DNA from: Streptomyces sp. SID13031
GTDB lineage: Bacteria > Actinomycetota > Actinomycetes > Propionibacteriales > Kribbellaceae
Assembly: GCF_010548305.1 (NCBI RefSeq)
Contig: NZ_JAAGLV010000006.1
Location: forward strand, 186,001 to 250,000
Direction of reading: 5' to 3'
Length of the DNA stretch: 64,000 nucleotides
Below are positions 30,944 to 45,814 of the stretch, one piece after another; position 1 is the first letter of the stretch, and each line of letters begins with the position of its first letter. The notes under the pieces are model-generated. The model worked only from the letters and a program-made list of their open reading frames with translations. It was not told where the DNA came from and did not search any database. The position numbers were made by a program, and so were the translations under genes.

Positions 30944-31017
30944 CTGACTGTCGCCGCCTGCCTTGACGGCCATCCCCCGGCGGCAGCCGCTGGTCAGCGG
31001 AAGTCGCGGGAGGTGGT
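30944..31017. repeat. Direct repeat copy B: dnaE2 3' end and flank
   Basis: This is the intact partner of the 74-bp repeat at 29537-29610. It spans the dnaE2 stop (30994-30996), the last codons (TTSRDFR) and 50 bp of downstream sequence. Integrative elements often target gene 3' ends and leave such duplications. Confidence 0.85.
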
Positions 31018-34000
31018 TTTGGCGGCCAGGGGGAGGCGTTCGAGTTTGTCGGCTACCAGATTGGTGACGCCCTGGGAGCGTTCCAGGCGGCCGCGGATGA
31101 TCATCGCGCTGGATTCGCGGGCGATGCGGCGGTAGCGGTTCCAGACGCCGTTCGAGCAGATGACGTTGATCATGCCGGTTTCGTCCTCCAGGTTGAGGAA
31201 GGTGACGCCGGCCGCGGTGGCGGGGCGCTGGCGGTGGGTCACCACGCCGCCGACGTGGACGCGGCTGCCGTTCTCGGCGGTGGAGAGCTGGTTCGCGCGG
31301 AGGATGCCGCGCTCGTCGAGAGCCGCGCGGATGTGCCGGATCGGGTGGTCGTCGGGTGAGATGCCGGTGGCCCACAGGTCGGCCATCGTCGTCTCCATCC
31401 CGGTCATCCCGGGCAGCATCGGCGGCGGGCCGGAGCTGCTCACCCCGGACAGATGCCCCGGACGTTCTTCGGCCGCACGTCCCGCGTTCCACAACGCCTG
31501 TCGCCGCGACAGCCCGAACGAGTCGAACGCCCCAGCCGTCGCCAGCGCCTCCACCTGTACTGCGGTCAGCCCGGTCCGGCGCACCAGGTCCGACATGTCG
31601 GCGTACGGTCCGTTCTTCTCGCGTTCCTCGACGATCGCGGTCGCGGCCGGCACCCCGACCGACTTCACCCCGGCCAACCCCAGACGCACCACCAGCCGCC
31701 CGTCCCGCCGATGCAGATCCGAGTCGAACGGCACCTCGGGATCGAACTCCCCAACCTCCGGCTGATCCCTCGCCAGACAAGAGTTGTTGCCTGTAGCAAC
31801 CGTCTGTCTTTCGGCGGACGGATTGCCACCAGCAGCCCCTCCGGCTCCACCGGAAGAGAAGGCAGCGGCTCCCCCATCCGCAAACTGACCACGCAGCGCA
31901 CCAGCCCCCAGGAAAGCGGGCGTAGCAGAGGCCGCAGCAGCCAACGCGGAGACCGCAAGGATGGGCACGGATGCGGGGGCGGGCGCGGGAGCCGGCGTGG
32001 GCTCGGAGGCCTGTGTCGGTGTGGAAGCGGAAGCCGGCCCGGGGGCGGAGGTGGTGGGTAGGGGTTCGAGGGTGGCGTGGATGTTGGAGGTTTGGAGGTC
32101 GGGGCGGAGGACTTCTACGCCGTGGCGGCGGGCGTCGGCTACCAGGGATTGGGGGGAGTAGAAGCCCATGGGCTGGGCTCGGAGGAGGGCGGCGAGGAAG
32201 GCTGCTGGGTAGTGCAGGCGGAGCCAGGTGCTGGCGTAGACGAGGAGGGCGAAGCTGATCGAGTGGGACTCGGCGAAGCCGAAGTTGGCGAAGGCTTCGA
32301 TTTTTTCGTAGATCTGGTCGGCGGTGTCGCCGGTGATGCCGTTCGCCGCCATTCCTTCGTAGAGCTTGGTCTTCAGGGACGAGATCTTCTCGACGCCGCG
32401 CTTGGAGCCCATCGCGCGGCGGAGCAGGTCGGCGTCCTCGCCGGTGCAGCCGCCGACCTTCATCGCGATCTGCATCAACTGCTCCTGGAACAGCGGGACG
32501 CCCAGGGTGCGCTCCAGCACCGGCTCGAGCGCCGGATGCAGGTAGGTGACCGGCTCCTCCCCCAGCTTGCGGCGGATGAACGGATGCACCGCGCCGCCCT
32601 GGATCGGGCCGGGCCGGATCAGCGCCACCTCGATCGCCAGGTCGTAGAAGCTGCGCGGCCGCAATCGCGGGAGCGTACTCATCTGGGCCCGGCTCTCCAC
32701 TTGGAACACCCCGATCGAGTCCGCCTTGCAGAGCTGGTCGTAGACGCCGCGCTCCTCCTTCGGGATCGTGTCCAGGTTCCAGTCCTCGCCGAGGTGTTCG
32801 CGGACCAGGTCCATCGCATACTGCAGGGCCGCCAGCATGCCGAGCCCGAGCAGGTCGAACTTCACCAGCCCCATCCAGGCGCAGTCGTCCTTGTCCCACT
32901 GCAGCACGGTCCGGTTCTCCATCCGGGCGTGCTCGACCGGCACCACGTGCCCGACCGGGATGTCGGTCAGCACCATGCCACCGGAGTGGATGCCGAGGTG
33001 CCGCGGGAACTTCAGCAGGTCCTCGGCCAGCGCCACCACCGGTGGCGGGATGTCGTGATCGACACTGCTCCGCACCGCGCCCCAAGCGTCCACCTGCTTG
33101 GACCACGCGTCCTGCTGCCCGGTGCTGAACCCGAGCGCCTTGGCCATGTCCCGCACCGCGAGCTTCGGGCGATAGGTGATCACGTTCGCCACTTGGGCCG
33201 CGTTGCGCCGGCCGTACTTGCGGTAGACGTACTGGATCACCTCTTCGCGCCGGTCCGAATCGAAGTCGACGTCGATATCGGGCTCCTCGTCACGAGCCGC
33301 GGACAAGAACCGCTCGAACGGCAGGTTGTAGAAGACCGGGTCGATCGCGGTGATCTCCAGCGCATAACAGACGACGGAGTTCGCCGCCGAGCCACGGCCC
33401 TGGTACAGGATCCCCTGACGCTTCGCGAACATGACGATGTCGCGCACGATCAGGAAGTACCCCGGGAACTTGAGCGACTCGATCACCGCCAGTTCGCGCT
33501 CGACCCGGGCGGTCGCCTCCTCCCGCAGCCCGGGTTTGTCCGCGTAGCGCTTCTTCACCCCATCCCGGCAGAGCTTCTTCAGCCACTTCATCTCGTCGTG
33601 CCCCGGTGGCACCTCCTGGCGCGGCAGGCTCGGCTTGGCCGCGCGCAAGCTGAACTCCAGCTGGTTGGCCAGCTCCACGGTGCGCGCGACAGCCCCGTCG
33701 TACCGGTGGAATCTGGCGAGCATCTCCTCCCCCGATCGCAGGTGGGCCGTGCCGGCGGGTGGCAGCCAGCCGTCCATCGCGTCGAGGCTGCGACGAGCCC
33801 GTACTGCGGCGATCGCGGCGGCGAGCTTGTGACGTCGGGGGTGGGCGTAGTGCACGTTGTTGGTGGCGATCACCGGGAGACCCGCGTCGGCCGCGAGCCG
33901 GGCCAGCACCGCGTTGCGCGTACTGTCCGTCGGCAACTGGTGGTCGATCAGCTCGACCACCACCCGGTCCTGGCCGAACAGCGCGGTCAGCCGGTCGAGC

Positions 34001-34674
34001 TCGCGCGCCGCGGCGGCCGGCCCGTCCGCTTGACCACCCAACTCGAGGGCACGGCGCACCAGGCCCTTGCGGCAACCGGTGAGGATCAGCCAGTTGTCCT
34101 CACCGATCGCCGCAAGCTCCTCCAGGTCGTAGACGGGACGACCCTTCTCCTGGCCGCGCAACTGCGCCTCGGTGATCGCGCCGGCCAGCCGGTGATACCC
34201 CTCTTGCCGCTCGGCCAGCACCAGCAGGTGACTGCCCTCGGGATCGGCCATCCCGTTCTGTGGTTTGGTCAGCTCCAGCGACAGCTCGGCGCCGAACACG
34301 GTCTGCAGATCGGCGTACTCCTCTGCTGCCTCGGCCATCCGGACCACGCCGTAGAACCCGTCGTGGTCGGTCAGGGCGAGCGCGTTCAGCCCGAGCCGGA
34401 TCGACTCCTCCACCAGGTGTTCCGGTGAGGATGCACCGTCGAGAAAGCTGTAGTACGAGTGGCAGTGCAGCTCGGCATACGGCACCACCGGCCCCTCCGG
34501 GCGGCGCGGTTTGTCGGCCGGATCCGGATCGTACGGCGGCCGGTGGCGCGACCAGGCCGGTCCGTCTCCCCCGTCGGCATCCAGCAGCTCGTCCGCGGGC
34601 GCGGGCGGCCGCGAGCGGCCCGACAACTTCCGCTCCAATTCCGACCACGGAATCGGCGGGTTGTCCCACCCCAT
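30994..34674 (-). CDS. dnaE2: Error-prone DNA polymerase DnaE2 (ImuC)
   Basis: This 1226-residue C-family polymerase performs translesion synthesis with ImuA' and ImuB. It has the DnaE2 N-terminal tag (GWDNPPIPWSELERKLSG), a PHP domain from about residue 65 (AELHCHSYYSFLDGAS), the catalytic aspartates in EPDIDVDFDSDRREEV, helix-hairpin-helix and OB regions, and the C-terminal SRDFR of the family. It exceeds the usual length (about 1080-1130) because residues about 868-976 are an Ala/Pro/Ser/Gly-rich insertion (TPAPAPAPASVP, GGAGGAAGG). A perfect SOS box lies 37 bp upstream of the ATG. Confidence 0.96.
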   Translation of the reverse strand: MGWDNPPIPWSELERKLSGRSRPPAPADELLDADGGDGPAWSRHRPPYDPDPADKPRRPEGPVVPYAELHCHSYYSFLDGASSPEHLVEESIRLGLNALALTDHDGFYGVVRMAEAAEEYADLQTVFGAELSLELTKPQNGMADPEGSHLLVLAERQEGYHRLAGAITEAQLRGQEKGRPVYDLEELAAIGEDNWLILTGCRKGLVRRALELGGQADGPAAAARELDRLTALFGQDRVVVELIDHQLPTDSTRNAVLARLAADAGLPVIATNNVHYAHPRRHKLAAAIAAVRARRSLDAMDGWLPPAGTAHLRSGEEMLARFHRYDGAVARTVELANQLEFSLRAAKPSLPRQEVPPGHDEMKWLKKLCRDGVKKRYADKPGLREEATARVERELAVIESLKFPGYFLIVRDIVMFAKRQGILYQGRGSAANSVVCYALEITAIDPVFYNLPFERFLSAARDEEPDIDVDFDSDRREEVIQYVYRKYGRRNAAQVANVITYRPKLAVRDMAKALGFSTGQQDAWSKQVDAWGAVRSSVDHDIPPPVVALAEDLLKFPRHLGIHSGGMVLTDIPVGHVVPVEHARMENRTVLQWDKDDCAWMGLVKFDLLGLGMLAALQYAMDLVREHLGEDWNLDTIPKEERGVYDQLCKADSIGVFQVESRAQMSTLPRLRPRSFYDLAIEVALIRPGPIQGGAVHPFIRRKLGEEPVTYLHPALEPVLERTLGVPLFQEQLMQIAMKVGGCTGEDADLLRRAMGSKRGVEKISSLKTKLYEGMAANGITGDTADQIYEKIEAFANFGFAESHSISFALLVYASTWLRLHYPAAFLAALLRAQPMGFYSPQSLVADARRHGVEVLRPDLQTSNIHATLEPLPTTSAPGPASASTPTQASEPTPAPAPAPASVPILAVSALAAAASATPAFLGAGALRGQFADGGAAAFSSGGAGGAAGGNPSAERQTVATGNNSCLARDQPEVGEFDPEVPFDSDLHRRDGRLVVRLGLAGVKSVGVPAATAIVEEREKNGPYADMSDLVRRTGLTAVQVEALATAGAFDSFGLSRRQALWNAGRAAEERPGHLSGVSSSGPPPMLPGMTGMETTMADLWATGISPDDHPIRHIRAALDERGILRANQLSTAENGSRVHVGGVVTHRQRPATAAGVTFLNLEDETGMINVICSNGVWNRYRRIARESSAMIIRGRLERSQGVTNLVADKLERLPLAAKTTSRDFR

Positions 34675-34710: not shown

Positions 34711-34726
34711 TCGAACATCTGTTCGA
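34711..34726 (-). promoter_or_regulatory. LexA SOS box of dnaE2
   Basis: TCGAACATCTGTTCGA fits the actinobacterial consensus TCGAAC-N4-GTTCGA exactly. On the minus strand it follows a TTGACT -35-like hexamer and overlaps the expected -10, so LexA would block the polymerase. Confidence 0.92.
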
Positions 34727-38798: not shown

Positions 38799-40541
38799 TC
38801 AGTCATAGCTTGCTTCTGTCCACCATTGGTTGTTGCGTACTGCGAAGAGCCAGGCGCGGCCGTCGGCGCCTACCAACTGGAAGCGGGCCAGGCGGTTCTC
38901 GCTGTCGGCGTCCCACCAGCGTTCGTCCACCGGCCAGGGGCCGGCCCAGGCGGTGACCGGATGGAGTTTGTTGCTGTCAGCAACTTGTGTGGATGGTTCG
39001 AAGCGGAAGGCGGCCGGGGCGCCGGACAGCACGCCGCGGGCGCTCACCGAGACTTGCCGGCCGTCTGCTGAGAGCACCTGCGCCGGCTTTGGCGTCGGGT
39101 AGATGGAGCTGGGCGCCGGTGTCGGCCAGCGGCTTCCCGTCCCGGCGATTGCACCTGGCCAGGGAACGTCCGGTGGGTTGGCGGGCACCGGACGATCGCC
39201 CCACGGGACCAGGGTCTGCCGCTCCAGGAAACCCCGGCCGCCACCGACCACCACCGAGACGACCCCGCCGTGGCCAAGCATGCTCTGCACCCGGGACAGT
39301 GCTCGGTGGATCCGCTCGTCGGGGCCGCCTCCCCAGAGGCCGTCGACGTGGGCACCGACCGGATCGACCTGCTCGGGGATCAGCCGGATCCGCACCACGG
39401 GTGACGTCAGCTCGCTGGTCGCCGTACCGCTGCCCTGTAGTTGCCAGCGGACCCGGTCGACGAGGTCGGCGGGGCTGAACCAGCGGGGATGCAACCACTC
39501 CCGCTCGTGCACCCGGCCGGACTCGGTACCGACCTCGACTCGCAGGGTGGTGCAGACCAGGCCGAGCTTGGTCAGCTTCTCGATGAGCTCGTCGGCGACG
39601 GCCCGTACTGCGAACGCCACCTGGTCCACGCGATCCACCGGGGGCTCGAACTCGAGCTTGCGGGCCAGCTCGAGTGGGACCTTCCGGGCAACCACCGGCC
39701 GCTCGTCGTCACCACGGGCCAGCCGGTGCGCGAACGCGCCGTCCGGGCCGAACCTGGTCAGCACCTCGGTCGCCGGCAACTGCGCGAAGGCGCCGAGCGA
39801 ACGGAGCCCGAGCCGCCGGAGCAGGTCGGTGAGGGTGGGTCGCTCGAGTGTGTCGACCGTGAGCGGCGCGAGGAACTCTGCCGACCCGCCACTCGGGATC
39901 ACCAGCACGCGCGTCCGCGCCGAACTCGCCCGCGCCGCCTGCTCCGCGGCGAACGGTCCGTCGGCGATCCCGACCCGCCCGCCCGGTACGTCGAACGTCT
40001 CGAGCCGGTCGAGCAGCTTCTCCGCGGCGGCGGACTCGCTCCCGTAGAACCGGCTCGGGCCACGGGCCTTCAGCGCGCACATCCCCGGGCGGATCACCTG
40101 GATGCCGGGGGTGAGCGCCTCCAGACAGCTGATCACCGGATCGAAGGCGCGGGCGTCGATCACCGGGTCGTACTTCAGCACCACCAGCTCCGGGCATCGC
40201 GACTGCGCATCCCGCGCACGCAACCCACGCCGCACCCCCTCGGCCCGGGCAGCCGCCGAACTGGCCAGCACCCGCCCCTTCGCCAGCACCGCGACCGGCG
40301 CCTCCGGCGAACACCCAGCAGCACCAGCAGCCGCCGTCACCGGCCAATCCGGAACCCACACCACCATCACCCGACTCGCCATCCCCCGACCGCCACCAGC
40401 CTTCCCCCGAGCCGGCGCAAGCACCCCAGGACGAGGCGAGGCAAAGGGCTCAGGGAGAGCCGAAGCGGGCTCTGTGTGGGGTGTCGTGGGCTGCTCTGGG
40501 TGGAGTGGGGTGATTGATGCTGGGGTGCGGAGAGTGCTCAT
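38799..40541 (-). CDS. imuB: ImuB, catalytically inactive Y-family polymerase of the mutasome
   Basis: This 580-residue protein is the hub that joins DnaE2, ImuA' and the beta clamp. It keeps the Y-family fold (MASRVMVVWVPDWPV at the palm start, FYGSESAAAEKLLDRLE, LPATEVLTRFG) but lacks the catalytic acidic residues, as VPDWPV and MCALKARG replace the active-site motifs. The C-terminal 60 residues (WWDADSENRLARFQL, FAVRNNQWWTEASYD) match the DUF6504 region that ends actinobacterial ImuB. ATG 40541 is chosen for its GAGGAG site and TGATG coupling to the small upstream gene; the core could also start at ATG 40382, which would drop 53 low-complexity residues. Confidence 0.93.
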   Translation of the reverse strand: MSTLRTPASITPLHPEQPTTPHTEPASALPEPFASPRPGVLAPARGKAGGGRGMASRVMVVWVPDWPVTAAAGAAGCSPEAPVAVLAKGRVLASSAAARAEGVRRGLRARDAQSRCPELVVLKYDPVIDARAFDPVISCLEALTPGIQVIRPGMCALKARGPSRFYGSESAAAEKLLDRLETFDVPGGRVGIADGPFAAEQAARASSARTRVLVIPSGGSAEFLAPLTVDTLERPTLTDLLRRLGLRSLGAFAQLPATEVLTRFGPDGAFAHRLARGDDERPVVARKVPLELARKLEFEPPVDRVDQVAFAVRAVADELIEKLTKLGLVCTTLRVEVGTESGRVHEREWLHPRWFSPADLVDRVRWQLQGSGTATSELTSPVVRIRLIPEQVDPVGAHVDGLWGGGPDERIHRALSRVQSMLGHGGVVSVVVGGGRGFLERQTLVPWGDRPVPANPPDVPWPGAIAGTGSRWPTPAPSSIYPTPKPAQVLSADGRQVSVSARGVLSGAPAAFRFEPSTQVADSNKLHPVTAWAGPWPVDERWWDADSENRLARFQLVGADGRAWLFAVRNNQWWTEASYD

Positions 40542-40759
40542 CAGCCGATGACTCCTCGGTGCGCGACGTCTTCGAGTAAGCGCACCAGCTCGGCCGAGCA
40601 GCTTCCCGCAGTTGGGGCGAGCAGTTCGGGGGTAGACAAAGCGAGCTCTACACGAGGCATTGCGAGTGGTGCTGGGTGGGATGGAGGCGGCTCCGGGTGG
40701 GGTGAGGCTGGCTTCGGGTGGGGTGACGGGGTTTGGTGGGGGGAGGTTGGGGTGGGCAT
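40541..40759 (-). CDS. 72-residue protein coupled between imuA' and imuB
   Basis: The ATG at 40759 overlaps the imuA' stop in TGATG, and the stop at 40543-40541 overlaps the imuB ATG, again in TGATG. Both junctions are the standard signature of translational coupling, so the frame is almost certainly translated. The first half is a Pro/His/Ser-rich repeat (TPSPHPKPASPHPEPPPSHP). The second half looks folded and ends MPRVELALSTPELLAP...SAELVRLLEDVAHRGVIG. I recognise no family. An SOS-induced partner of the mutasome, or merely a translation bridge that keeps imuB expression tied to imuA', are the two readings. Confidence 0.7.
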   Translation of the reverse strand: MPTPTSPHQTPSPHPKPASPHPEPPPSHPAPLAMPRVELALSTPELLAPTAGSCSAELVRLLEDVAHRGVIG

Positions 40760-41577
40760 CAGCCGGTTGCTTCCCAGTGGGTGAGGGAGGGGGCGGTGGG
40801 GTGGGCTGGGCGGATGGTGCCGTCGGGGGCTGGGAGCCAGAGGTGGTGTTGTTGGGGGCGGACGGCGGCGCCTCGGCCGGTGACGGCGACGGTTGCCTGG
40901 CGGGTGGTCAGGAGGCCTTCGCCTGCGCCGAGGCCGGTCCAGGTGCTGGATTGCACCTCCAGGCGGGCTTCGCTGCCTGGCCAGGAGCCGACTGCGATCA
41001 GCATCGCGCCGCGGGTGCGCAGGCGGGCCGACAGGCGGGAGGCCTCCCCCGGCGTCACCTCTCCCGGTGGCCGGACCACCACGACCGTCAGGGCGTCGAC
41101 GAGTGCTGCGACGACGCTCAGCCAGTCGCGCTCCGGGTCGGGCACCAGCACCAGCCGGTCGAGGTCGACGCCGAGACTGCGCGCCGCCTCCGCCCCGAAC
41201 GACGGCATCCCGACCACTCCGCACCAGGCACCCTCGGCGGACGGTCCGGCCATCATCGCCATCACCAGTGACGTCGACCCGCGCACCGAGTACACCGAGC
41301 CACCTCGCAGTACGGCTCCGGACAGAAGGCCGGAGATGGCCGGCAGAGTGGGCAGCTCCCGGTCGACGGTGGCCGTGTCCAGCGCTTGCTGGACCCGCGT
41401 CTCGGTCGTCCGCGGCGCCAGCACGGTCGGCATCACCGTCTCGTCCGTCGCCTGCCGGAGCCGGGCGGCCTTCTGCTCCTGGGCGCGGGCTAGTAGCGTT
41501 CGCGCCTGATCGAGCGCGGTCACCCGGCTCCGCTCAGCCGGACGCGCAGGCAGCTCAGTCGCAGAAGTCCCCGTCAC
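40759..41577 (-). CDS. imuA': ImuA' (RecA-like mutasome accessory protein)
   Basis: The product is about 272 residues long. It is a RecA/SulA-like protein with SGLLSGAVLRGGSVYSVRGS in place of a Walker A region and LVLVPDPERDWLSVVAALVD downstream, matching the ImuA' (Rv3395c) type. Together with ImuB and DnaE2 it allows damage-induced mutagenesis. The frame is open to 41622 but the SOS box (41588-41603) lies inside that extension, so the true start is GTG 41577, possibly on a leaderless transcript, or GTG 41523, which has GGAG 6 bases upstream. Its stop overlaps the next start. Confidence 0.88.
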   Translation of the reverse strand: MTGTSATELPARPAERSRVTALDQARTLLARAQEQKAARLRQATDETVMPTVLAPRTTETRVQQALDTATVDRELPTLPAISGLLSGAVLRGGSVYSVRGSTSLVMAMMAGPSAEGAWCGVVGMPSFGAEAARSLGVDLDRLVLVPDPERDWLSVVAALVDALTVVVVRPPGEVTPGEASRLSARLRTRGAMLIAVGSWPGSEARLEVQSSTWTGLGAGEGLLTTRQATVAVTGRGAAVRPQQHHLWLPAPDGTIRPAHPTAPSLTHWEATG

Positions 41578-41587
41578 CCCTCCATGT

Positions 41588-41603
41588 TCGAACACCTGTT
41601 CGA
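41588..41603 (-). promoter_or_regulatory. LexA SOS box of the imuA'-imuB operon
   Basis: TCGAACACCTGTTCGA matches TCGAAC-N4-GTTCGA perfectly. On the minus strand a consensus TTGACA lies just before it, with the SOS box filling the spacer and -10 region. Confidence 0.92.
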
Positions 41604-41720
41604 CTTCTGTCAATCGACCCACCGCGAGCTGTGGACAACCCGTCCGGAACCCGGGCTCCTCCCTGGACTCAGGACCTGCGCGCTGATCACGGTGGCGGAT
41701 CTCCAGTGAAAGGACCGGGT

Positions 41721-44513: not shown

Positions 44514-45422
44514 TCACGCTGAAACGGCCCCCTTCTTCAACGGCCGGGTGAGCTGTTCGCACACCGTTGATCGAGCTGCTGCCCGGCCTCGGTCCACCTG
44601 ATCGCCCATCGGGAAAGGCCAGTCACTGCCGGCCAGCACCCGATCGGCCCCGAAGGTCGCCCCCAGCAACACCCGTACCGCGTCGTCGTGCACCAGGTCG
44701 TCCACATAGAACCGCTGCAGGGCCTCGGCCACCGACAGCGAGAGTGGTTCGATTCCTGGCCGTGCCGTGTCGATCCCGCGCTGCCAACGGCCGGCCAGAG
44801 CCGCCGTGACACCGCCGCCGTGGCACAGGCAGAACCTGATACCAGGGAATCGGCCGACAACATCCCCGAACACCAGCTCGGCCACGGCGAGCCCTGTTTC
44901 ATAAGGGTTCCCCAGCAGGTTCGACAGGTAGTACCTGCCGAGCCGCTCGTCGTGGCTGTGGCTCGGGTGAATCAAGGTGAAGGCCTCCAGCGAGTGGAGC
45001 ACCTCCCAGACATCGTCCAGCCCGGCATAGCCCGCAGTACCGAGAGCGAAGCCGCTGAAGACGCCCTCAGCCGCCAGCGCGGAAGCAACCGAAGCGGCTG
45101 AAGGATCCCCCAAGGGCAACTGCCCCAGCACGCGCAGCTGCGGCGTCGCCAGCTCACGGAGCCCCTGGTTGACCAGTGCTGCCCACTCGGCGCCCTGGTC
45201 GTAGCGGAACAGCGCAGGCGGTACGGAGACCACAGCACCGTCCAGCTCCTGCTCGTCGATCCACCTCAGCAGTGCTGCCGGGTCTGCAAGGCGCTTCAGC
45301 GGTAGCCGCTCGCCGTCGACCAGCAGGAAGCCGTCTTCAACCGCCAGCCCAAAGGCACGCCGAGAAGCCGCCGTGAGCACAGTCGGCGGTATCAGATGAG
45401 TGTGGACGTCCCAGCCGGCCAT
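44514..45422 (-). CDS. Amidohydrolase / ACMSD-type TIM-barrel hydrolase or decarboxylase
   Basis: This 302-residue metal-dependent TIM-barrel protein begins with the HxH motif (WDVHTHLIPP), has HPSHSHDERLG and LCHGGGVTAALAGRW for further metal ligands and ends with VLAGSDWPFPMGD, where the Asp completes the site. It belongs to the amidohydrolase_2 group with aminocarboxymuconate-semialdehyde decarboxylase and related ring-acid decarboxylases. It is the last gene of the overlapping catabolic run, sharing 1 base with the cupin gene. Confidence 0.88.
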   Translation of the reverse strand: MAGWDVHTHLIPPTVLTAASRRAFGLAVEDGFLLVDGERLPLKRLADPAALLRWIDEQELDGAVVSVPPALFRYDQGAEWAALVNQGLRELATPQLRVLGQLPLGDPSAASVASALAAEGVFSGFALGTAGYAGLDDVWEVLHSLEAFTLIHPSHSHDERLGRYYLSNLLGNPYETGLAVAELVFGDVVGRFPGIRFCLCHGGGVTAALAGRWQRGIDTARPGIEPLSLSVAEALQRFYVDDLVHDDAVRVLLGATFGADRVLAGSDWPFPMGDQVDRGRAAARSTVCEQLTRPLKKGAVSA

Positions 45423-45814
45423 CAGCGAGCGTCCTCGTCGTTGTCGTAGAAGGACGGCCGCACCGGATAGTGCGGACCGTCGTACACCTCGAGGAGGACA
45501 GAGGTCTCCTCTGCCATCGTCGGGCCGTGTGAGACGCCCTTGGGGTTCCAGTAGAAGCTGCCCTTGGTCAGCGTCGTCCCGGTCGGCAGGTACACGTACC
45601 GGCCGGACAGGCAGAACATGAACTGGTTCGACGCGTGCTGATGCGGCTCGGGGATCCCGGAGCCCTGCTCGAAGCGAACCAGCGCGATGGAGGCTTCAGA
45701 GACCTCATCCCGCCAGAGCATCTTGTGCGACAGCCCGGCCAGCGACTTCTCGACCCACTCCAGGTCATCCGTCTGCAGCAGCACCTCACTCAACTGCTCG
45801 TCGAAGGAACTCAT
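45422..45814 (-). CDS. Cupin-domain protein
   Basis: This 130-residue single cupin has both motifs. Motif 1 is IPEPHQHASNQFMFCLSGRY, with two His ligands, and motif 2 is KGSFYWNPKGVSHGPTMAEE, with the third His. It could be a small metal-dependent isomerase, lyase or dioxygenase acting on the product of the FAD monooxygenase, whose stop overlaps its start by one base. Too small for a known ring-cleavage dioxygenase of the 3-hydroxyanthranilate type. Confidence 0.87.
   Translation of the reverse strand: MSSFDEQLSEVLLQTDDLEWVEKSLAGLSHKMLWRDEVSEASIALVRFEQGSGIPEPHQHASNQFMFCLSGRYVYLPTGTTLTKGSFYWNPKGVSHGPTMAEETSVLLEVYDGPHYPVRPSFYDNDEDAR

Follow-up and report, generated by a model that had tools for sequence, protein, structure and literature searches.

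The imuA' and imuB genes of the window, by which we mean the whole 64,000-nucleotide stretch of DNA that was analysed, are separated by a 72-codon frame, here called the bridge ORF, which opens in the stop codon of imuA' and closes in the start codon of imuB, with TGATG at both ends (40759..40541, minus strand), as had been described from the sequence alone. We consider it likely, with a probability of roughly 0.6, that this ORF arose as a by-product when an unstable gene junction stranded a copy of the head of ImuB, and that it probably serves as a ribosome relay coupling imuB to imuA'. The bridge peptide itself is probably dispensable.

The locus and its SOS setting

The features on which the analysis rests are the following, with positions counted in the window.

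41588..41603, minus strand: SOS (LexA) box TCGAACACCTGTTCGA upstream of imuA', a perfect TCGAAC-N4-GTTCGA
40759..41622, minus strand: open frame of imuA', with 287 codons when read from its first GTG, and stop at 40761-40759
40757..40761, minus strand: first TGATG, the stop-start overlap by which imuA' and imuB are usually joined in Kribbella
40541..40759, minus strand: bridge ORF (ORF72, P0001), 72 codons plus stop
40604..40759, minus strand: codons 1-52 of the bridge ORF, read as a diverged copy of the ImuB N-terminal leader
40541..40603, minus strand: codons 53-72 with the stop codon, which may be a diverged imuA' tail
40539..40543, minus strand: second TGATG, containing the imuB ATG at 40541-40539
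40383..40541, minus strand: Pro-rich leader of ImuB, 53 codons, missing from the sister genome G024
38799..40382, minus strand: ImuB core (MASRVMVVWVPDW...), Pfam IMS at E 1.2e-11
34711-34726: SOS box of the polymerase gene taken as dnaE2, a perfect TCGAAC-N4-GTTCGA
30994..34674, minus strand: gene for DNA polymerase III alpha (PF07733 match), taken as dnaE2

The pattern TCGAAC-N4-GTTCGA, which we take to be the consensus of the SOS (LexA) box, has four perfect matches in the 8.5-Mb genome besides the two of the window (C41:223769, C47:359009, C52:84347 and C55:43733), and the reversed control pattern has none. Since the box upstream of imuA' sits within the first codons of the open frame, the true start of the gene is probably further down. 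An orthologue of imuA' is present in 54 of the 58 genomes searched, its own included, and the Pfam matches of the frame are all below the cut-off (RecA, E 0.21; DUF4350, E 0.022). The polymerase gene is taken as dnaE2 on the basis of its SOS box and its context rather than of a DnaE2 model. Together, the imuA'-imuB pair and the separate polymerase gene, each with an SOS box, are a split mutagenesis cassette of the mycobacterial type; the gene calls of the original prediction hold, and so does the SOS context that it proposed, with perfect boxes at 41588-41603 and 34711-34726.

In the part of the source cited here, mycobacterial imuA-imuB is described as a two-gene operon (PMC10421592). The mycobacterial imuA'-imuB/dnaE2 cassette (PMC10421592, PMC11791113) resembles the present locus in that the pair has an SOS box and the polymerase gene lies apart with a box of its own; unlike the window, it is presented, in the passages concerned, with no mention of an ORF between imuA' and imuB. 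Titles and abstract openings in the literature yielded no report of an ORF in this position. We take Rv3395A to be a small ORF near the mycobacterial imuA'-imuB operon. In four genomes of the same taxonomic order (L041:1400-2120, L039, L042 and L043, one of which is taken as Actinopolymorpha rutila), imuA' and imuB lie ~600 nt apart and the gap holds a conserved frame of ~100 aa that begins MTTYAIANL... or MPTYAIANL... and by eye resembles DUF1330. Between this ~100-aa gene and imuB, L041 has a perfect SOS box (TCGAACACATGTTCGA).

Coupling of imuA' and imuB in relatives

The comparison within Kribbella covers 36 junctions, that of the window and those of 35 of 37 congeners, the junctions of G015 and G022 being cut by contig ends. 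An ATG overlaps the imuA' stop codon at the same place in 33 of the 36 (32 as TGATG, one as TAATG), and imuB is coupled directly to imuA' in 28 (26 by TGATG, one by TAATG and one by ATGA). Because an ATG stands there in nearly all of these junctions, the first TGATG of the window is no independent coincidence; it is the ordinary coupling signal, inherited. Outside Kribbella, the best 80 of 567 matches gave 62 loci and 61 junctions with both genes, and an imuB start falls at -8..+3 of the imuA' stop in 49 of these and at -8..+8 in 56; none of the 61, the five uncoupled at -8..+8 included, has a bridge ORF by the latter rule.

On the ImuB tree the sister of the window is G024 (support 97/74, short of the star threshold that the tree uses), and the two ImuB cores are 97.0% identical over 367 aa. 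There imuA' is joined to imuB by TGATG with neither a bridge ORF nor an ImuB leader, and the ImuB core begins 17 nt past the first nucleotide of the imuA' stop codon, as against 397 nt in the window.

Given the first TGATG, a closing TGATG in the imuB frame arose in 49 of 5000 dinucleotide shuffles of the window junction, and any 1- or 4-nt coupling on ATG or GTG in 431 of 5000. With starts up to 8 nt from the stop, and counting only those shuffles that kept an imuB start and were not directly coupled, closure was obtained in 327 of 2333 on ATG or GTG and in 147 of 2345 on ATG. The second TGATG is unusual for this one junction, yet not extreme. The original prediction had argued that two precise couplings are unlikely by chance; one of the two is the inherited first TGATG. 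Elsewhere in the window, a 130-aa gene (45422..45814, cupin-like by eye) shares one base with each of its neighbours as TGATG.

TGATG overlaps are frequent among prokaryotes (PMC6728339), and in E. coli and Haloferax a spacing of ~20 nt nearly abolishes termination-reinitiation (PMC10666635), as stated in the portions of these papers drawn on here, so that imuB would lose its coupling with 218 nt inserted, were there no frame to bridge the gap. The window shares with the stop-start coupled pairs of those portions the co-directed genes with an overlap of -1 or -4 nt, in this case a 1-nt TGATG overlap at both ends of the bridge ORF, and an SD-like motif before the second start. It differs from them in having a lineage-specific ORF in the middle, one that was probably stranded there as a copy of the beginning of the downstream gene, and in that the coupling is predicted.

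Properties of the bridge ORF

Both junctions of the bridge ORF read CGGCTGATG. Within the end of the ORF, 10 nt ahead of the imuB ATG, there is an SD-like GAGGAG, the spacing of which equals that of GGGAGG or AGGAGG in several congeners. The codon adaptation of the bridge ORF is 0.42, the same as that of the ImuB leader (0.42) and as the wrong-frame median (0.42, 100 windows), and none of 138 real-gene windows, from 11 genes of the window, is as low (minimum 0.49). At third codon positions the GC of the ORF is 0.67, again lower than in all 138 (minimum 0.68), and an alternative frame of the same DNA has a codon adaptation of 0.49, above the ORF's own. A single-sequence AlphaFold2 model has a mean pLDDT of 65.8, a pTM of 0.24 and a single helix at 56-68; the first half of the peptide is Pro/His-rich, as had been noted, and the model speaks only weakly for the folded C-terminal half proposed along with it.

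No Pfam match to the bridge ORF appears at E up to 1. Among the matches listed in a protein search (E to ~0.8), none lies at a congener junction, and the best outside the ORF's own locus is at another place in G013 (E 0.0018, 22 bits, 36% identity, with two internal stops); no orthologue was found in the genomes compared, one per species. The original prediction had put forward a fourth small component of the mutasome, to be checked by looking for a conserved frame in relatives. None of the 35 readable congener junctions has the bridge ORF protein, an outcome said in advance to speak against a gene, and there is no coding signal in the codon usage; the fourth component is not borne out.

Two other accounts of this DNA were considered and rejected. 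RNA structure in place of coding finds no footing, as the 521-nt junction folds no better than its shuffles (z -0.68, 23/100). A repeat brought in from elsewhere in the genome is likewise discarded, the best other DNA match in the same genome having E 0.01 over 35 nt; the best matches elsewhere within the genus, in G026 (E 1.7e-6, 73% over 93 nt) and G028 (E 1.2e-4), are at other places, and the two elsewhere-in-genus matches that were read (L160 and L161) are Pro-rich low-complexity stretches. As to base composition, there is a sharp local asymmetry between the strands at positions 40350-40950, the GC skew of the coding strand dropping to -0.63 over the imuA' tail and the bridge ORF and climbing to +0.49 at the start of the ImuB core, and similar junctions, C-rich and then G-rich, are seen by eye in L036 and L002.

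Origin of the bridge ORF

The bridge ORF aligns with the leader of its own ImuB from Met to Met with a BLOSUM62 local score of 77, which is reached by none of 1000 shuffles (mean 39.7, sd 6.5) and by none of 37 Pro-rich control windows (best 57), the similarity being one that low-complexity sequence inflates. The other eight frame pairings of the two stretches score 22-48. In DNA, the local score was matched by 6 of 1000 dinucleotide shuffles (9 of 1000 under looser scoring). A tandem duplication of the junction requires the head of the ORF to resemble the head of ImuB, and the resemblance is there and is frame-specific. The two leader copies are identical at 60% of codon-aligned bases (58, 73 and 49% by codon position); since this falls short of the ~74% identity at fourfold sites between the window and the sister genome, the copies would have diverged faster than the sister genome or arisen by slippage.

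The start of the bridge ORF also matches the junction DNA of G032 (91% over 31 nt including TGATG, E 9.2e-4), where the matching stretch is the direct start of ImuB (MTTPTSTSP...); compared as protein the match is weak, its score being reached by 14 of 300 shuffles. Against the ImuB leader of K. catacumbae (L002) the bridge ORF scores 62, which is not significant (91 of 1000 shuffles). That leader contains in-frame repeats of the HPATSPIAELA type, and small in-frame NGL repeats occur at the imuB starts of L018, L022 and L026; the N-terminus of ImuB seems to tolerate repeat growth. A multiple DNA alignment of eight junctions was set aside, their lengths being too different.

For codons 53-72 the comparisons disagree. 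A repeat of the window's own imuA' tail is not significant in the insert (59 of 500 shuffles), the local tail alignment was equalled by 504 of 1000 shuffles, and the score of the ORF tail against the best of all 36 imuA' tails was reached by 24 of 60; only the tests that anchor the ORF and its own imuA' tail at the stop give a suggestive result (19 of 2000; 0 of 60), and the five comparisons do not agree overall. An origin from the imuA' tail is possible for these last ~20 codons, and we do not claim it.

Disturbed junctions in other species

Direct coupling is missing from eight of the 36 Kribbella junctions (the window, G001, G003, G011, G019, G021, G031 and G058), and six of the eight, the window included, have a bridge ORF, defined as one whose start lies no more than 8 nt from the imuA' stop and whose end overlaps the imuB ATG by 1 or 4 nt. 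These bridges measure 72 aa in the window, 36 in G011, 25 in G021, 20 in G031, 17 in G003 and 10 in G001, and those of the other species differ from that of the window in length and, by eye, in sequence. The bridge of G031 leads from a GTGA overlap to an ATGA overlap, that of G003 is Pro/His-rich and starts 1 nt past the imuA' stop, and that of G001 starts with a GTG 3 nt past it. The ORFs of G019 (20 aa) and G058 (23 aa) continue past the imuB ATG, for 19 and 8 nt respectively, and are not counted as bridges.

Shuffled junctions lead one to expect 1.44 bridges where six of eight are found (P 1.2e-4), or 0.71 if closure is limited to ATG (P 1e-6), and without the window 1.30 where five of seven are found (P 8.2e-4), all three values being post hoc. 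The relay test is exploratory, the start rule having been widened after the junctions had been seen by eye; with starts restricted to -4..+2 there are bridges at four of eight junctions (P 0.024), and at three of seven (P 0.10) without the window. For the full set of eight, P varies with the start rule from 0.024 to 1.3e-4. If the window, G011 and G021 are all removed, three of five remain by the first rule (P 0.0085) and one of five by the strictest (P 0.56). On the ImuB tree, the window, G001, G011, G021 and G003 occupy separate places, and G019, G031 and G058 all belong to a single unresolved group of ten, which makes their independence less sure. The translation bridge that the original prediction had offered as its other possibility gains comparative support from this distribution; relay translation as such is something that we infer.

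The duplication itself can be seen outside the window. In G011, taken as K. jiaozuonensis, the 36-aa ORF has an ImuB-like head and an ImuA'-like end, with TGATG as its closing overlap; it agrees with the genome's own imuA' tail at 47 of 54 nt, which none of 500 shuffles equalled, and to judge by the sequence it is plainly a tandem duplication of the junction of imuA' tail, TGATG and imuB head. The ORF of G021 also closes on TGATG, and in the test for a repeat of the imuA' tail it is reached by 7 of 500 shuffles; G019 is marginal in that test (22 of 500), and G058 (396 of 500) and G001 (131 of 500) are not significant. The unit lengths, 218 nt in the window, 110 in G011 and 77 in G021, are all 2 modulo 3, a regularity that is weak on its own because it follows from the second TGATG closing the frame. 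The K. jiaozuonensis junction (G011, L030 and L093) is thus like that of the window in having an ORF opened and closed by TGATG and a unit length of 2 modulo 3, and unlike it in its 36 aa, its clear head-tail duplication, its other sequence and its distant place on the ImuB tree.

Alternative explanations

A genuine fourth subunit or regulator of the mutasome is, in our estimate, highly improbable. The two stop-start overlaps do put the bridge ORF in an SOS operon, and a short helix is predicted at 56-68, but the frame is absent from the 35 readable congener junctions, the bridges of other species differ in length and, by eye, in sequence, no bridge ORF occurs at the 61 non-Kribbella junctions (from the best 80 of 567), there is no Pfam match at E up to 1, and the codon usage is like that of a wrong frame, with codons 1-52 explained as a copy of the ImuB leader. 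The reverse view, quite unlikely in our judgement, takes the stretch for a pure chance linker that is not translated, with 40382, an internal ATG (MASRVMVVWVPDW), as the start of ImuB and no meaning in the second TGATG. The wrong-frame-like codon adaptation of both the bridge ORF and the ImuB leader (0.42, with 0.49 for the other frame of the same DNA) and the start of the sister ImuB near the core would fit such a linker; the similarity of ORF and leader in the matching frame, the SD-like GAGGAG at the 10-nt spacing known from several congeners, and the surplus of bridge ORFs at disturbed junctions would not.

It could also be that a long original leader of ImuB was cut by a frameshift, real or due to sequencing, and that imuB restarts at the second TGATG, be it there by chance or by selection, with no duplication having occurred. 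We hold this to be unlikely, albeit deserving of serious attention: in K. catacumbae the same first start leads into a long Pro/Ala/His leader in frame with ImuB, the shorter leader of G032 matches the start of the bridge ORF, no stop interrupts the imuB frame between a point ahead of the imuA' stop and the core, and the region is C-rich (GC skew -0.63) in an assembly that is a draft of 134 contigs. Two observations speak against it. The bridge ORF is closer to its own leader (77, 0 of 1000) than to the leader of K. catacumbae (62, 91 of 1000), and a better match to the ImuB leader located downstream in the same genome calls for two copies; furthermore, the closing TGATG arose in just 49 of 5000 shuffles.

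Proposed mechanism and implications

According to the reading that we prefer, that of a stranded ImuB-head copy at an unstable junction, the starting state would have been that usual in Kribbella, with imuA' and imuB joined by TGATG. In the lineage of the window, the start of ImuB would have gained a Pro/His/Ala-rich leader, and the junction stretch would have been duplicated in tandem or expanded by repeat slippage, such that one leader copy would now fill the 218 nt between the old TGATG and a second one and be left stranded there as an ORF of 72 codons. If a clean tandem unit measures 2 modulo 3, the frame closes on the stop of the second copy, as is visible in G011 (110 nt). Ribosomes would then terminate and reinitiate stepwise, passing from imuA' to the bridge ORF and from there to imuB. 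The contact between ImuA' and ImuB maps to the C-terminal region of ImuB, according to the passage cited (PMC11791113), and a changed N-terminus of ImuB need therefore not disturb the complex.

More broadly, and tentatively enough that we would stop short of even odds, bacteria may mend broken translational coupling by way of relay ORFs that are selected for continuity of translation, the peptides being irrelevant; the imuA'-imuB junction of Kribbella would have been disrupted several times and mostly spanned again, by differing ORFs. A tandem duplication across a stop-start overlap would be a ready route to this end, as each unit of 2 modulo 3 yields a frame both opened and closed by a coupling signal. 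The analysis thus removes a candidate subunit of the mutasome and puts in its place the testable idea that coupling is rebuilt by small relay ORFs indifferent to sequence, which would pass for small genes in annotation and in screens for small proteins. If relay translation is real, it would show that selection favours making ImuA' and ImuB together once DNA is damaged, and measurable differences in the ratio of ImuA' to ImuB would be predicted among related Kribbella species.
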